Below are positions 48,631 through 54,310 of a DNA stretch of 64,000 nucleotides, piece after piece. Under the pieces are notes generated by a model, which had not been told where the DNA came from, did not search any database, and saw only the letters and a list, made by a program, of their open reading frames with translations. Location of the stretch: the NCBI GenBank assembly GCA_022072085.1, contig JAJVII010000057.1, forward strand, positions 1-64,000. Direction: 5' to 3'. The stretch comes from Phycisphaerae bacterium. Its GTDB lineage: Bacteria > Planctomycetota > Phycisphaerae > JAJVII01. The number at the start of each line of letters is the position of its first letter. Within the stretch, counting starts at the first letter, position 1. A program made the position numbers and the translations under genes.

Positions 48631-49692
48631 TTACCGGTGCAATCTGGATGCGAGGAAGGCGACAAGCGCCCGCCGACGAGCACGCCGACTGTCCAGACAA
48701 AGGGCCTTGATCCGCCGCCCGCGCCACACCCCGCCGCAACGATAGAAGACCTCGATAAGCCGCAGCATCCGTTCCTGTCGGCGCCGGTCCAGGGCCTCCT
48801 CGTCCGCCCAGCGCGGGTCGGGGCTGCCGCTCAGCACGCCGGCAAGCAGCATCGACAGCGCCAGCACGCGCCGGTACGCGCACTCGGCCGCCAGTTCCCG
48901 GGCCCGCCGCACGCCCGATTCGTCCATCCGGGCATTCAGCAGCAGCAGGTCCAGCAGCGAGATCAGCGAGGTGAACTGGTGGTGGTATCCCCAGTGCCCG
49001 CACAGGTGGACCAGCGAGTGCGCCGGCGAGAGGATGCGGCAGGCCCGCCCGGCAATCTCGGTCCGACCCGCCTGTTCCCAGACCTGCTCGCCGGTCAGGA
49101 TCGAGCCGTCAGACCAGGAGGCCGACACGTCGCTCCAGTGCAGGTCAATCTGCACCTGCGGGCGAGCCGCGTCGTGAAACTCGACGCTGTTGAAGTATCG
49201 CAGCCGCCGCCGCACGCTCATCCTCGTCGAGGGGACCATGCCCATTTGCAGCAGCATCGGCTCGACAAGATCGTACTTCTCCCGGTCGATGAGCAGGTCC
49301 AGATCGACGAACGGACGCCACGCCGGCTGCGGGTAGATCGTCCCGGCCAGCGCCGCCCCCTTGAACAGCAGGAACCGCACGCCCCGTTCGTCCAGCCCCG
49401 CCCCTACGGCCGCCAGCGTGTGCTCAAGTTGCATCACCAGCGCCGTCTGGGCCAGCGCCATCGGGTGCAGTTGCTTCGCCGCCGACGCCGCCAGCCGCAG
49501 GCGTCCCTCGCGATGCAGGCTGTGCATCAGCGGCAGCAGGTTGTGTCGCCGGCCCATCGACAGCAGCACCGGCTCGGGCACGCCCTGGGCCGACGCGACG
49601 TACGACGGGTCAGCCGCGGCGCGGATCACGTCCACCACCATCGCCAGCGGCGCGGGCAGCGACAGGCCGGGCAACGTGGCGGGCTCGCTCAT
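48631..49692 (-). CDS. Nucleotidyltransferase-5 family protein of the RiPP-like cluster
   Basis: Encodes 353 residues, starting in a 4-nt ATGA overlap with the kinase gene. The NTP_transf_5 signature is visible: FLLFKGAALAGTIYPQP (Lys111-Gly112) followed by RPFVDLDLLIDREKYD with the metal-binding Asp130 and Asp132. Conserved HWSDVS and HLCGHWGYHH segments follow. In lasso-peptide clusters such as that of pseudomycoidin, a protein of this family works after an HPr-kinase-like enzyme to decorate the phosphorylated peptide end. Cytoplasmic. The same role here is inferred from gene order and overlap with the kinase. Confidence 0.8.
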   Translation of the reverse strand: MSEPATLPGLSLPAPLAMVVDVIRAAADPSYVASAQGVPEPVLLSMGRRHNLLPLMHSLHREGRLRLAASAAKQLHPMALAQTALVMQLEHTLAAVGAGLDERGVRFLLFKGAALAGTIYPQPAWRPFVDLDLLIDREKYDLVEPMLLQMGMVPSTRMSVRRRLRYFNSVEFHDAARPQVQIDLHWSDVSASWSDGSILTGEQVWEQAGRTEIAGRACRILSPAHSLVHLCGHWGYHHQFTSLISLLDLLLLNARMDESGVRRARELAAECAYRRVLALSMLLAGVLSGSPDPRWADEEALDRRRQERMLRLIEVFYRCGGVWRGRRIKALCLDSRRARRRALVAFLASRLHR

Positions 49693-50729
49693 CTCCTCAG
49701 CGCCTCCGCAACCCCCAGGGGGCCGTCGCCCAGCACCAGTCGACGGACCTCGGCTTGCGCCACCAGGTCGGCCAGCACCTGGAAATGAGCCTCAGCCGAC
49801 GCCGGGTTGATCAGCGACAGGTTCTGCTCCATCAGGGCGTTCAAAGCCTCCGTCCGCGTCGCCGGCTCGAAACGCGTGGGCCCCTCCCCTGCGATCCGCG
49901 GCAGCAGCACGCCGTCGACGTCCGCCGCGCTGAGCACACGTCCGGGCCACGCCCGCAGCGGGTCCAGCGAGTACTTGAAGCGGCCGTCCGCGCCGGGGCC
50001 CTCCGCCGCGACGGGGCCCCCCTCGCACAGCGGCGCCAGTCCCGGCAGCCAGCGCATGCTCGGCGGGCGCAGGCCCACGCGGCTGGGAAAGCCGTGCGCG
50101 ACGATGCGGCCGTCCTCGCGACCGAGCAGCACCCAGTCGTCGCCGAGGAACTCGCCGCCAGCCTCAGCCAGCGCCGCCGCCACGGTCGTCTTGCCGCAGC
50201 CGCTCGACGCCGCCAGCAGCCAGCAGCGCCCGTCGACGCGCACGCCGGCTGCGTGCGTCGGGAACAGCCCGAGGCTCGACAGCGTCCAGCAGACCGGCAG
50301 ATCCACAAAGAAGATCATCCCCAGGCGGCCGTCGAGTTGCTCGCCGTCCGCCACGAGCCCGCCGATCCGCCGCGACGGGAAGTCGATCCAGACGTGGCCG
50401 TGGCAGCCGTAGTCCAGCAGCGCCTGTTCGCCATCCCCGCCGGCGCGGCGATAGCCGACGACGTCGAATCGGCCGTAGATCAGGGGTTGATTGCTGCGGG
50501 TGTGGTGAAAGAACAGCTCGCCGCGGCGGAAGTCGTCCAACTCCGCCGGCGACAGAGCCCGTCGGCCCGACAGGTCGATGACGCCGCCCCCCCGTGGCCC
50601 GGCATTGCCCTCGCCGGCTGAGGCATTGCGGGCCCACCCCAGCCAACGATCCACCTCCGGCAACAGCGCCGCCGGCAGGCCGACCAGGTCGAGGGTCACG
50701 CCGTGAATATCAAATCGATGCAAAGGCAT
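49689..50729 (-). CDS. HPr-kinase-like (HprK-related) protein of the RiPP-like cluster
   Basis: Encodes 346 residues from the ATG at 50729. The frame stays open to a GTG at 50909, but that start would swallow the small peptide gene at 50755-50829 and has no ribosome site. A P-loop, LLAASSGCGKTT (Lys180), is followed by EFLGDDWVLL (Asp197/Asp198), the arrangement of HPr kinases and of the lasso-peptide kinases related to PadeK. These phosphorylate a Ser hydroxyl on the peptide. The N-terminal 140 residues are a variable domain. It sits 25 nt after the second peptide gene and is coupled to the nucleotidyltransferase gene, so the small peptides are its likely substrates. Confidence 0.85.
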   Translation of the reverse strand: MPLHRFDIHGVTLDLVGLPAALLPEVDRWLGWARNASAGEGNAGPRGGGVIDLSGRRALSPAELDDFRRGELFFHHTRSNQPLIYGRFDVVGYRRAGGDGEQALLDYGCHGHVWIDFPSRRIGGLVADGEQLDGRLGMIFFVDLPVCWTLSSLGLFPTHAAGVRVDGRCWLLAASSGCGKTTVAAALAEAGGEFLGDDWVLLGREDGRIVAHGFPSRVGLRPPSMRWLPGLAPLCEGGPVAAEGPGADGRFKYSLDPLRAWPGRVLSAADVDGVLLPRIAGEGPTRFEPATRTEALNALMEQNLSLINPASAEAHFQVLADLVAQAEVRRLVLGDGPLGVAEALRR

Positions 50730-50754
50730 CAGCGATTGCTTGACTGGCCGCGAC

Positions 50755-50829
50755 TTACGGCTGGCTGAGGCCAGCCAGGAGACCGACGTTGCCCCGTTTG
50801 CTGACTTGCGGCTTGCTGTAGGGTCGCAT
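50755..50829 (-). CDS. Putative RiPP precursor peptide B (24 aa)
   Basis: A 24-codon gene with GGGAG 9 nt before its ATG. It begins MRPYSKPQVSKRGNV and ends AGLSQP. It aligns with the other peptide gene over MR-x-Y-x-KP-x-V-x-x-R-x-NV and a following Gly-Leu/Leu-Ile/Leu-Ala part. Tyr4-x-x-Pro7-x-Val9-x3-Gly13 matches the YxxPxL(x3)G leader pattern read by RRE proteins in lasso-peptide clusters. Only about 11 residues follow Gly13, too few for a lasso core. A Ser stands third from the end. It is flanked by the other peptide gene and the kinase, both on the same strand. Direct support is the paralogy, ribosome site and context. Confidence 0.65.
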   Translation of the reverse strand: MRPYSKPQVSKRGNVGLLAGLSQP

Positions 50830-50958
50830 AGTGAATTGCTCCCGCCACGGGTGAAAATGCGTCCTGCGAAAGCCGGGCGACGCCCCCGGCGGACATCTTC
50901 CTCATACACAATACAACCGCGCCATTCATCGTCAAGCCCCTGCCGCTGGCCGAGAGGC

Positions 50959-51027
50959 TCACGAAGCTGCGATCAGCCCGCGGACGTTCGACCGGGTCAC
51001 GACGCGAGGCTTCTCGTACTTCCGCAT
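50959..51027 (-). CDS. Putative RiPP precursor peptide A (22 aa)
   Basis: A 22-codon gene with AAAGGAA 7 nt before its ATG. An in-frame ATG at 51045 would add six residues (MPKELI) but has no good site. It begins MRKYEKPRVVTRSNV and ends RGLIAAS, with Ser as the very last residue. Tyr4-x-x-Pro7-x-Val9 fits the RRE-recognised leader motif of lasso precursors. It is paralogous to the peptide gene 130 bp downstream. C-terminal Ser is the residue phosphorylated by HPr-kinase-like lasso tailoring enzymes, and such a kinase is encoded next door. Whether it is a full precursor or a leader-like peptide is open. Confidence 0.7.
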   Translation of the reverse strand: MRKYEKPRVVTRSNVRGLIAAS

Positions 51028-51130
51028 GATCAGTTCCTTTGGCATGACGCGCGCCGATCGGCCTGGGTCAACTCATACATACTTATCGTCCCGCAACCCG
51101 TCAATCAATAAGCTGCCGTTCGAGCGGGCG

Positions 51131-51592
51131 TCACGGATAGCGGTGCAGTTCGGCGAACCGGCCGTCCGGGTCGGCGGCCTCGAACAGCGGCCGGCCTTCC
51201 AGCTCGACCCATGCGTGCCCGTCGCCGGCGAAGTCGGCCCGGCTGATCGCCAGGTGGACGCTGGCAACCAGCCCCATCCGCCGCGCCCAGCGGAACAGGA
51301 CCAGGCTCCGCGGCAGGCAGCGGCGGCGGTTGCCCAGCAGAACCGCCAGGAAGATGTTCGTCCACCGGCGTACGAGCGCCAGCGTCGCCAGTTCGTCGGG
51401 CCTCGCGGCGTGCGAGCCCTGCCCGCCTTCCGGCTGGTCCCAGCCTTCGCAGAGCCGCTCCAGCGGCAAGCGGGCGATCCGCCGTCGCGCCTCAAGCAGG
51501 TCGCGCCATGTCCGCCACGCCAACGGCCATCGCCGCGGCGACAGCAGGCTAGCCAGCCTGCCCAGCCGGCTTCTGTTCCGATCGCAGTTCAA
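51131..51592 (-). CDS. Lasso-type B2 protein (transglutaminase-fold leader peptidase)
   Basis: Encodes 153 residues from a TTG at 51592 (GAGG 6 nt upstream), overlapping the PqqD-like gene by 44 nt. The C-terminal domain has the McjB/B2 triad: Cys92 in RRRCLPRSLVLFRWARR, His126 in GHAWVEL and Asp141 in EAADPDGRF. B2 proteins cut the leader from RiPP precursors delivered by a separate RRE (B1) protein. Here B1 and B2 are separate genes, as in many Gram-positive and planctomycete clusters. The two small peptide genes follow 103 nt later on the same strand. Confidence 0.85.
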   Translation of the reverse strand: MNCDRNRSRLGRLASLLSPRRWPLAWRTWRDLLEARRRIARLPLERLCEGWDQPEGGQGSHAARPDELATLALVRRWTNIFLAVLLGNRRRCLPRSLVLFRWARRMGLVASVHLAISRADFAGDGHAWVELEGRPLFEAADPDGRFAELHRYP

Positions 51593-51869
51593 TCGCGCCC
51601 TCGGCGACCAGTTGATCGATCAGTTCGCGGAGGTCAGCCGACGCCGTCGCTTCGTCCACGTCGTATTCGGCCAGGATCGCCGCCAGCAGGTCGCTCACGG
51701 GCCGCCGGCCGTCGATGCGGTCCCAGACGAACGTCCCCACCTCGTTGAGCGAGAAGAAGTCGCCGCTGACCAGATTGAGCACAACCCGCTCCTGCTCAAC
51801 CTGCCGCGCGCTGACCCGGCCGAGAATCGTCGGACGGGAGCCCCAGAATGCCGCGTCGTCCTGCGCCAT
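51549..51869 (-). CDS. PqqD-like RiPP recognition element (B1) protein
   Basis: Encodes 106 residues, with GGAGG 5 nt before the ATG. The PqqD/RRE fold is visible in VVLNLVSGDFFSLNEVGTFVWDRIDGRRPVSDLLAAI and the following helices (DEATASADLRELIDQLVAEG). Such domains bind the leader of a RiPP precursor and pass it to the peptidase or modifying enzyme. It is the first gene of the cluster and overlaps the B2 gene by 44 nt, so the two products are made together. The C-terminal extension (residues 95-106) is Ala/Gly-rich. Confidence 0.85.
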   Translation of the reverse strand: MAQDDAAFWGSRPTILGRVSARQVEQERVVLNLVSGDFFSLNEVGTFVWDRIDGRRPVSDLLAAILAEYDVDEATASADLRELIDQLVAEGAIELRSEQKPAGQAG

Positions 51870-52636: not shown

Positions 52637-54310
52637 TCAGCGCAGGGTCAGCCGCTTGTATTGGCTGCGGCGGTGGGCCAGACGGTCGCTGCCCGCATCG
52701 GCCAGCGACTTCTCGTAGGCCTCGAAGTTGCCCTCGAACCATCGTGTCCGCCCGCCGCCCTCAAGGATCAGCAGGTGCGTGCAGATGCGGTCCAGGAAGA
52801 AGCGGTCGTGGCTGATGACCATCGCGCAGCCGGGGAAGTCGATCAGGGCCTGCTCCAGCACGCGCATCGTGCCGACGTCCAGGTCGTTGGTCGGCTCGTC
52901 CATCAGCAGCAGGTTGCCGCCGCGGCGCAGCAGCTTGGCCAGGTGGACGCGGTTGCGCTCGCCGCCGGACAACTCGCCCACGTGCTTCTGCTGGGCCGGT
53001 CCGCGGAAGTTAAATCGCGACACGTAGGTCCGCGAGCTGATGCTCAGATCGCCCAGCTTGAGCTGATCCTTGCCGTCGGTGATTTCCTCGAAGACCGTCC
53101 GGCTGCCGTCCAGGGCGTCGCGGTGCTGGTCGACGTAGGCCAGCGACACCGACTCGCCCAGGTGAATCTCGCCGGCGTCGGGCGTCTCCTGGCCCATGAT
53201 CATGCGGAACAGCGTCGTCTTGCCCGAGCCGTTGGGCCCGATGACCCCGACGATCCCGCCGCGCGGCAGCTCGAACGAGCAGTCGGCCAGCAGCGGCGTC
53301 CCGTTGTAGCCCTTGCTCACGCCGCGGACGCGCAGCACGTCCTGGCCCAGCCGCGGACCCGGGGCGATCTGGATCACCGCGTCGCTGCGGGCATCCTGGG
53401 TCTGCTGGCCGGCCAGTTGCTCGAAGGCGCTGATGCGGGCCTGGCTCTTCTTGCGGCGGCCCTGCGCGGATGTGTTGATCCACTCCAATTCGCGGGACAG
53501 CGTGCGCTGCCGCTCGCTCTCGCGCTTCTCGCTGACGCGGAGCAGCTCGGCCTTCTGGGCCAGCCAGCTCGAATAGTTGCCCTCGAACGGCAGCCCGCGC
53601 CCGCCGTCCAGTTCCAGGATCCACTTGGTGATGTTGTCCAGGAAGTAGCGGTCGTGCGTGACGATGATGACCGTGCCGGGGTATTCGCGGAGCTGGGCCT
53701 CCAGCCAGGCCACCGTCTCGGCGTCCAGGTGGTTGGTCGGCTCGTCCAGCAGCAGCAGATCGGGCTTCTCCAGCAGCACGCGGCAGAGCGCGACGCGCCG
53801 CCGCTCGCCGCCGGAGAGCAGCTTCACCGGCATGTCGTCCGGCGGCAGCACGAGGGCGTCGGCGGCGATGTCCATCAGCCGGTCGAGCTCCCAGCCGTCG
53901 GCGGCGTCGATCTGCTCCTGCAATCGGCCCATCTCCTCCATCAGCTCGTCCATGCGATCGGCGGCGGCGGGATCCGACAGTTCCTCGGTGATCTTGTTGA
54001 ACCGGTCGATCAGCCCCTGGATCGGCGCGACGGCCGCCAGCAGGTTCTGGCGAACGGTCGCCTCCAGGTCCAGCGCCGGCTCCTGGGCGACGTAACCGAC
54101 CCGCATGCCCTTGGCCAGGCGGGCCTCGCCGTGGAAGTCCTTGTCCACGCCGGCCATGATCCGCAGCAGCGAGGTCTTGCCCGAGCCGTTCTCGCCGACG
54201 ACGCCAATCTTCGCGCCGTAGAAGAACGACAGGCTGATGTCCTGGAACACGAGCTGGTCGCCGTAGCGCTTGGCGACGTCGCGCATCTCGAAGACGAATT
54301 GGGGCGGCAT
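52637..54310 (-). CDS. ettA: ABC-F ATPase, EttA type
   Basis: Encodes 557 residues with GGAGG before the ATG. Two ABC domains are present with Walker A GENGSGKTS (near residue 41) and GPNGSGKTT (near residue 350). Signature motifs LLSGGERRRVALCRVLLEKPDLLLLDEPTNHLD and ELSGGERNRVHLAKLLRRGGNLLLMDEPTNDLD follow. The linker and arm region between them is EttA-like, and length is the usual one for EttA (about 555). EttA binds the ribosomal E-site and gates entry of initiation complexes into elongation according to energy state. No membrane segments. It appears as a single-gene unit. Confidence 0.9.
   Translation of the reverse strand: MPPQFVFEMRDVAKRYGDQLVFQDISLSFFYGAKIGVVGENGSGKTSLLRIMAGVDKDFHGEARLAKGMRVGYVAQEPALDLEATVRQNLLAAVAPIQGLIDRFNKITEELSDPAAADRMDELMEEMGRLQEQIDAADGWELDRLMDIAADALVLPPDDMPVKLLSGGERRRVALCRVLLEKPDLLLLDEPTNHLDAETVAWLEAQLREYPGTVIIVTHDRYFLDNITKWILELDGGRGLPFEGNYSSWLAQKAELLRVSEKRESERQRTLSRELEWINTSAQGRRKKSQARISAFEQLAGQQTQDARSDAVIQIAPGPRLGQDVLRVRGVSKGYNGTPLLADCSFELPRGGIVGVIGPNGSGKTTLFRMIMGQETPDAGEIHLGESVSLAYVDQHRDALDGSRTVFEEITDGKDQLKLGDLSISSRTYVSRFNFRGPAQQKHVGELSGGERNRVHLAKLLRRGGNLLLMDEPTNDLDVGTMRVLEQALIDFPGCAMVISHDRFFLDRICTHLLILEGGGRTRWFEGNFEAYEKSLADAGSDRLAHRRSQYKRLTLR

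Follow-up and report, generated by a model that had tools for sequence, protein, structure and literature searches.

The window analysed here is a stretch of 64,000 nucleotides from a Phycisphaerae bacterium (assembly GCA_022072085.1, contig JAJVII010000057.1, positions 1 to 64,000), on a host contig of 88.9 kb (C30) within a genome of 5.5 Mb. The subject is a set of genes at 48631-51869 that resembles a cluster for a ribosomally synthesized and post-translationally modified peptide (RiPP). Six consecutive minus-strand open reading frames (ORFs) were confirmed, in the order RiPP recognition element (RRE), B2 leader peptidase, two micro-peptides (A and B), HprK-like kinase and NTP_transf_5 protein (Table 1). 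The RRE and B2 genes overlap by 44 nt and those for the kinase and the NTP_transf_5 protein by 4 nt, all as claimed by an earlier reading made from the sequence alone (the sequence-only reading). The cluster itself, with its two YxxP peptides and no lasso cyclase, was confirmed as real.

Table 1. Features of the RRE-B2-kinase cluster, with coordinates in the window.
Feature	Position	Strand	Basis
Discrete RRE (PqqD-like, B1-type), 106 aa	51549..51869	-	PF05402, 74 bits, 1.2e-20
Lasso-type B2 leader peptidase (transglutaminase-like), 153 aa, TTG start	51131..51592	-	NF033537, PF13471
Precursor-like peptide A, 22 aa, MRKYEKPRVVTRSNVRGLIAAS	50959..51027	-	AAGGA shortly 5' of ATG
Promoter-like TTGACG-16-TATTGT, 5' of peptide B	50908..50935	-	Consensus match only
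Precursor-like peptide B, 24 aa, MRPYSKPQVSKRGNVGLLAGLSQP	50755..50829	-	GGGAG 5' of ATG
HprK-like kinase, 346 aa	49689..50729	-	TIGR04352, 1e-11, below cut-off
NTP_transf_5 protein, 353 aa	48631..49692	-	PF14907, 117 bits, 1.6e-33

A discrete RRE and a B2 leader peptidase are hallmarks of lasso peptide clusters, and both are present. The RRE aligned with the solved lasso RREs PbaB1 (9x90, 1e-20) and TbiB1 (5v1u, 2e-18) and with LppB (9x8z, 5e-7); in the alignment its Asn42 and Asp79 fall in the columns of Asn33 and Asp70, which in LppB belong to the YxxP cleft. B2 matched PF13471 (44 bits) and NF033537 (45 bits, cut-off 33) and is the sole Transglut_core3 protein above cut-off in the genome. 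Of the catalytic triad Cys92/His126/Asp141 put forward in the sequence-only reading, Cys92 and His126 show no variation across the alignment of B2 proteins, and neither does Trp128, but the column of Asp141 holds Asp in just 8 of 80 sequences, so the third residue is unproven. Foldseek with a structure model of B2 (predicted local distance difference test score of 87) gave no match at E≤0.001, and weaker matches, to transglutaminase-like proteases and arylamine N-acetyltransferases, were disregarded as evidence; a PDB sequence search with B2 and the NTP_transf_5 protein gave no match. The kinase keeps His159, Gly177, Gly179, Lys180, Asp197 and Asp198 in the alignment, which completes a motif also reported for the lasso kinase BsfK (PMC10368454), and KG and DLD (130-132) of the NTP_transf_5 protein are kept in its family alignment.

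No lasso cyclase was found in the cluster, as the sequence-only reading had stated: an Asn_synthase profile run over the genome gave matches on contigs C14, C11, C39, C70 and C1 and none on C30. An apparent cyclase at C30:65697-67526, a weak match to a home-built profile just past the end of the window, proved to be GlmS (SIS and GATase domains).

The micro-peptides and their match to the RRE

Peptides A and B are encoded between the B2 and kinase genes, in the direction of the operon, each with a purine-rich ribosome site 5' of its ATG, and are 48% identical (about half of 22 residues). TTGACG and TGTATGAG occur upstream of both. Lasso leaders carry Tyr at -17, Pro at -14 and Leu at -12, with position -2 usually Thr (PMC10368454). 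Counted from Tyr4, peptide A has Pro at +3, Val at +5, Leu at +14 and Ile at +15, and peptide B has Pro at +3, Val at +5, Gly at +9, Leu at +14 and Ala at +15. The motif is thus in register with lasso leaders, position -2 being Ile in A and Ala in B, and the putative cores are AS and LSQP. The pair of paralogous YxxP peptides of 22 and 24 codons that had been described from the sequence therefore stands. The NCBIfam lasso-precursor models gave no match for the window peptides or the shortest peptides of related loci, and longer ones scored below threshold; relatives' peptides share only the motif register with those of the window.

Ring formation is ruled out on chemistry, because peptide B has no Asp or Glu and peptide A has a single one, in the leader, with none after residue 5. 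An Asp or Glu at core positions 7-9, the criterion for a lasso precursor, is missing from the window cores, which are 2 and 4 residues long. A pathway that really runs without a cyclase would be expected to have precursors devoid of this ring acceptor, and the cyclase-less loci bear this out. With the core register assigned from the motif together with position -2 (manually for L188 and the window), an acidic residue was present at core 7-9 in 36 of 39 loci with a cyclase and in 1 of 16 without (Fisher p 1e-9). The median core length was 26 residues with a cyclase, 12 without and 11 in the group of the window on the RRE+B2 tree, where all 22 precursors contain a core Ser or Thr.

The aromatic residue of the leader tracks one residue of the RRE, which links the peptides to the RRE. 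Leader Tyr pairs with Asp in the column of window Asp79 in 45 of 46 loci, leader Phe with Ser in 5/5, and leader Trp with Glu, Gln or Thr in 5/5 (with Asp in 0/5); since related loci are not independent, these counts are to be read as a pattern and not as a probability. Contacts of the leader aromatic in structures (Asp70 of LppB; Gln79/Glu75 of PbaB1) predict the pairing observed (PMC13381572). The covariation holds across phyla and might help genome mining to match precursors to their RREs.

Related clusters in other genomes

The search for B2 covered 392 genomes from the phylum, 397 from the class and 154 from a further class, and relatives of the RRE were sought in GTDB contigs; the loci were annotated with profiles built in this analysis. 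The relatives fall into two types of cluster, one in which a cyclase accompanies ordinary lasso precursors and one that is cyclase-less. Two planctomycete loci of family f49 (L055, identical to L136, and L060, identical to L112) have the gene order of the window, no cyclase and an adjoining Poly_export gene. The same cyclase-less gene set with YxxP peptides was found in L097, L101, L103 and L115, and in L079, L099 and L100, each of which is cut by contig ends. The sequence-only reading had held that it would fail if homologous loci lacked the small peptides; YxxP peptides are present in L055, L060, L097, L101, L103 and L115. Those of L097, L099 and L101 are 29-40 aa long, L079 and L100 have eight and three peptides in tandem, and L103 carries an ABC-2 exporter. 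L115, from an acidimicrobiian of another phylum, encodes a leader-only peptide of 24 aa (MKRPYKKPTLTDLGLLRKLTRFSF) with an AGGAGG ribosome site, whose stop codon overlaps the RRE start (TGATG); a Ser at Tyr+18 (core position 2) is shared by this peptide, A and B. Overall, YxxP or FxxP peptides accompany cyclase-less RRE-B2-kinase-NTP clusters in Planctomycetota and one acidimicrobiian. One genome of the same family as the host was searched for the kinase and B2 and gave no match.

In the RRE+B2 tree the window belongs to a well-supported set (99/94) of 13 loci, none of which has a cyclase. Its sister is L115, with weak support (77/68), and the row of the window is long-branched; its exact placement is weakly supported. 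Cyclase status changes 10 times over this tree. Because the absence is also seen elsewhere in the tree, the state must have changed more than once.

Several loci showed features of their own. In L079 (860-2518) the eight tandem micro-genes (RRExLAKVxEG...VT[GDE]) follow the RRE and B2 genes and precede the kinase gene; degenerate copies are also present, and TTGACA-17-TATCTT lies 5' of the first micro-gene. An archaeal RRE-B2-kinase-NTP locus from Natronococcus (L171, 7753-9198) has no adjoining cyclase and three YxxP peptides, one with a long run of glycines after the leader. Precursor-like ORFs with a doubled FxEPKL leader and an FFxSF-type core were found in five Brocadiales-like loci, a lineage name guessed from the family code: L070 (4810-5091), L072 (5402-5593), L074 (4478-4669), L077 (11128-11316) and L078 (11424-11591). 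In each the ORF lies upstream of genes for a kinase, a radical SAM protein, the RRE and B2, and there is no cyclase. The RRE most identical to that of the window (56%) belongs to L110, which has a methyltransferase-like gene and an NTP protein; L110 was rejected as the same system because neither B2 nor a YxxP peptide stands beside its RRE. A second RRE of the host genome (L082, 7645-8115; G000:C16:92644-93114) ends in a tail that bears a YxxPxL lasso-leader-like motif (KYSPPTLNVYRDMQDLLALDPPMPGLGDVDW) at its C-terminal side and looks like a precursor-RRE fusion; next come two glycosyltransferases, then an HprK-like kinase and an NTP protein, with no B2.

Proposed pathway and alternatives

We consider it somewhat probable that the locus is a lasso-derived RiPP cluster, devoid of cyclase, that makes a linear peptide of 2-4 residues, phosphorylated and further decorated. 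Phosphorylation, decoration and cleavage by B2 are proposed on the basis of the kinase motif, of Cys92 and His126 of B2, and of the precedents PadeK, BsfK, LppK and PsmN. Known kinase targets are Ser3 next to the leader (BsfK, LppK) and the C-terminal Ser (PadeK), and PsmN adds a hexose to phospho-Ser (PMC9266682, PMC10368454, PMC13381572). In the window, the RRE would bind the YxKPxV leader of each micro-peptide and present the peptide to the kinase, which would phosphorylate the single core Ser, 18 residues past the leader Tyr in both peptides. Next, the NTP_transf_5 protein may link the phosphate to a sugar or nucleotide, and B2 would cut after the position corresponding to leader -1, to yield a linear decorated AS or LSQP. 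The sequence-only reading had likewise envisaged a linear or leader-only product, phosphorylated and decorated; the leader-only form and the lack of a ring are borne out by the recurrence of cyclase-less clusters and by the missing acid acceptor, while phosphorylation and decoration remain predicted.

Some observations weigh against this interpretation. The cores of 2-4 residues are shorter than in any precursor of the cited papers, and the usual Thr at -2 is missing from both peptides; Ile(-2) is known from experiment in BsfA, whose kinase target is Ser3 (PMC10368454), and Ala(-2) was seen elsewhere among the loci only in L079. The kinase matches lie under curated cut-offs (top NCBIfam match TIGR04352, 44.5 bits versus 200; Hpr_kinase_C, 16.6 bits only). 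No exporter or immunity gene adjoins the cluster. L079, L099, L100 and L103 are called cyclase-less from contigs that break off close to the cluster. The window RRE alone is nearest to the f49 loci (40%), a grouping of the window with f49 was not rejected (approximately unbiased test, p 0.08), and a tree of RREs only, PDB RREs included, left the placement of the window unresolved.

The locus could instead be a decaying lasso cluster, its cyclase gone, its precursors core-less and the remainder persisting by inertia. The repeated changes of cyclase status agree with this, and peptides A and B end exactly where a lasso core would start. We consider decay unlikely, as the four enzymes retain family-conserved residues, the two paralogous peptides retain start signals and motif, the leader-only form recurs, behind a perfect ribosome site, in the acidimicrobiian L115, and the tree group of 13 is uniformly cyclase-less. 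Equally improbable is a role of the micro-peptides as regulators or adaptors, that is, as mimics of the leader that sit on the RRE and steer the action of B2 or the kinase on another protein. In essence they would be ligands of the RRE with hardly any core, the cluster has no exporter, and peptide B has a promoter-like site of its own (1 site found versus 0.1 expected in shuffles). Yet the same kind of peptide has a core of 6-30 residues in related clusters, and the core Ser/Thr is always present in the group of the window. Slightly less probable still is a scaffold function, in which a small molecule is built on the peptide end and freed by B2. Peptide aminoacyl-tRNA ligase (PEARL)-type pathways are the model for such building on a peptide scaffold. 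The leader-only form would suit it and the NTP-transferase could load a building block, but the neighbouring genes include no recognisable peptide-aminoacyl ligase or oxidative enzyme.

That the two short ORFs arose by chance is very improbable. They are short, and dN/dS (nonsynonymous to synonymous substitution rates) between A and B is ~0.65 over 22 codons, too few to mean much; on the other side, among 3000 dinucleotide shuffles of the 401-bp gap between B2 and kinase (both strands), 46 gave at least one YxxP micro-ORF and none gave two, and the gene position recurs together with the covariation of leader and RRE. That the locus makes a lasso peptide with the help of a cyclase from another part of the genome can be dismissed almost entirely, barring the existence of a further precursor: the genome has two divergent Asn_synthase proteins with GATase domains (L085, 7503-9434, G000:C39; L086, 11080-12891, G000:C70), but no RRE or B2 lies in the 16 kb around either gene, and the peptides offer no acid for a macrolactam.

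As a wider proposal, which we make only tentatively, cyclase-less linear phosphopeptide RiPPs of the B2 type may constitute a distinct family in Planctomycetota and Acidimicrobiia, with a precursor that in places would have shrunk to a leader plus 2-4 residues and would encode a decorated di- to tetrapeptide. The same arrangement occurs in distant bacteria and therefore looks like a little-known route to very short phosphorylated peptides.

Relation to known systems and genomic surroundings

The gene order, with an encoded precursor beside an RRE and a modifying enzyme, is that of RRE-guided RiPPs in general. The window is not a lasso cluster, because it has neither the cyclase nor a lasso precursor. 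It resembles the clusters of the phosphorylated lasso peptides paeninodin, pseudomycoidin and Bsf in its RRE, B2 and HprK-like kinase (PMC9266682, PMC10368454), shares the NTP transferase with the latter two and, with Bsf, Ile at -2 next to Ser3 phosphorylation there; unlike the window, all three clusters include a lasso cyclase, and their full cores provide an acidic ring acceptor. The Brocadiales-like loci belong to the same tree group and combine RRE, B2 and kinase, mostly with an NTP protein and without cyclase, but differ in their cores of 6-11 residues, the doubled leader and the radical SAM gene between kinase and RRE.

About half of the discrete lasso-type RREs do not occur together with B2 and a cyclase, and they had been put aside as potential false positives (PMC7470986). 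The loci described here show that some are real clusters that have no cyclase, keep B2 and encode precursors short enough for gene callers and mining tools to skip. The micro-peptides would also be very small substrates for the study of RRE-guided kinases and of the NTP_transf_5 step.

The cluster is flanked by unrelated genes, a cytochrome c gene and an ABC-F-type ABC protein upstream (52637-54310) and BatA/VWA proteins downstream. An Rfam scan gave no match.

The term 'new RiPP class' in the sequence-only reading was overstated, because cyclase-less kinase/NTP-transferase RiPPs, the linear polyphosphorylated peptides (LPP) of Bacillota, were described in 2026 (PMC13381572). For the B2-type leader-only form, no description was found in the literature available without subscription. 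LPP clusters likewise have a discrete RRE, an HprK-like kinase, an NTP transferase and no cyclase, and their YxxP RRE-binding-type leader is present in the window peptides; phosphorylation near the leader junction is the main modification in LPP and would be so here. They differ in using a SipW-like signal peptidase (LppS) together with an MsbA-like exporter, where the window has a cysteine peptidase of the B2 type and no exporter beside the cluster, and in precursors of 35-200 aa with YxxPxVLxHQxIxFETxxS, of which the window peptides (22-24 aa) lack the FETxxS portion. No SipW-like (archaeal-type) signal peptidase scored above cut-off in the genome (TIGR02228; a single weak match on C13), and MsbA-like matches (PF00664) were on C18, C9 and C46 only, none on the window contig; the window therefore falls outside LPP, though its logic is LPP-like. 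The clusters of the planctomycete host and its relatives would extend linear phosphopeptide RiPPs past Bacillota, with a different leader peptidase. A 29-aa LPP-type peptide (MKRKYIKPIIVIEETITFETGWSCWDLPQ), below the reported LPP range, was observed near an RRE, a kinase and an NTP protein in HGW-Firmicutes-14 (L140, 3743-3832).

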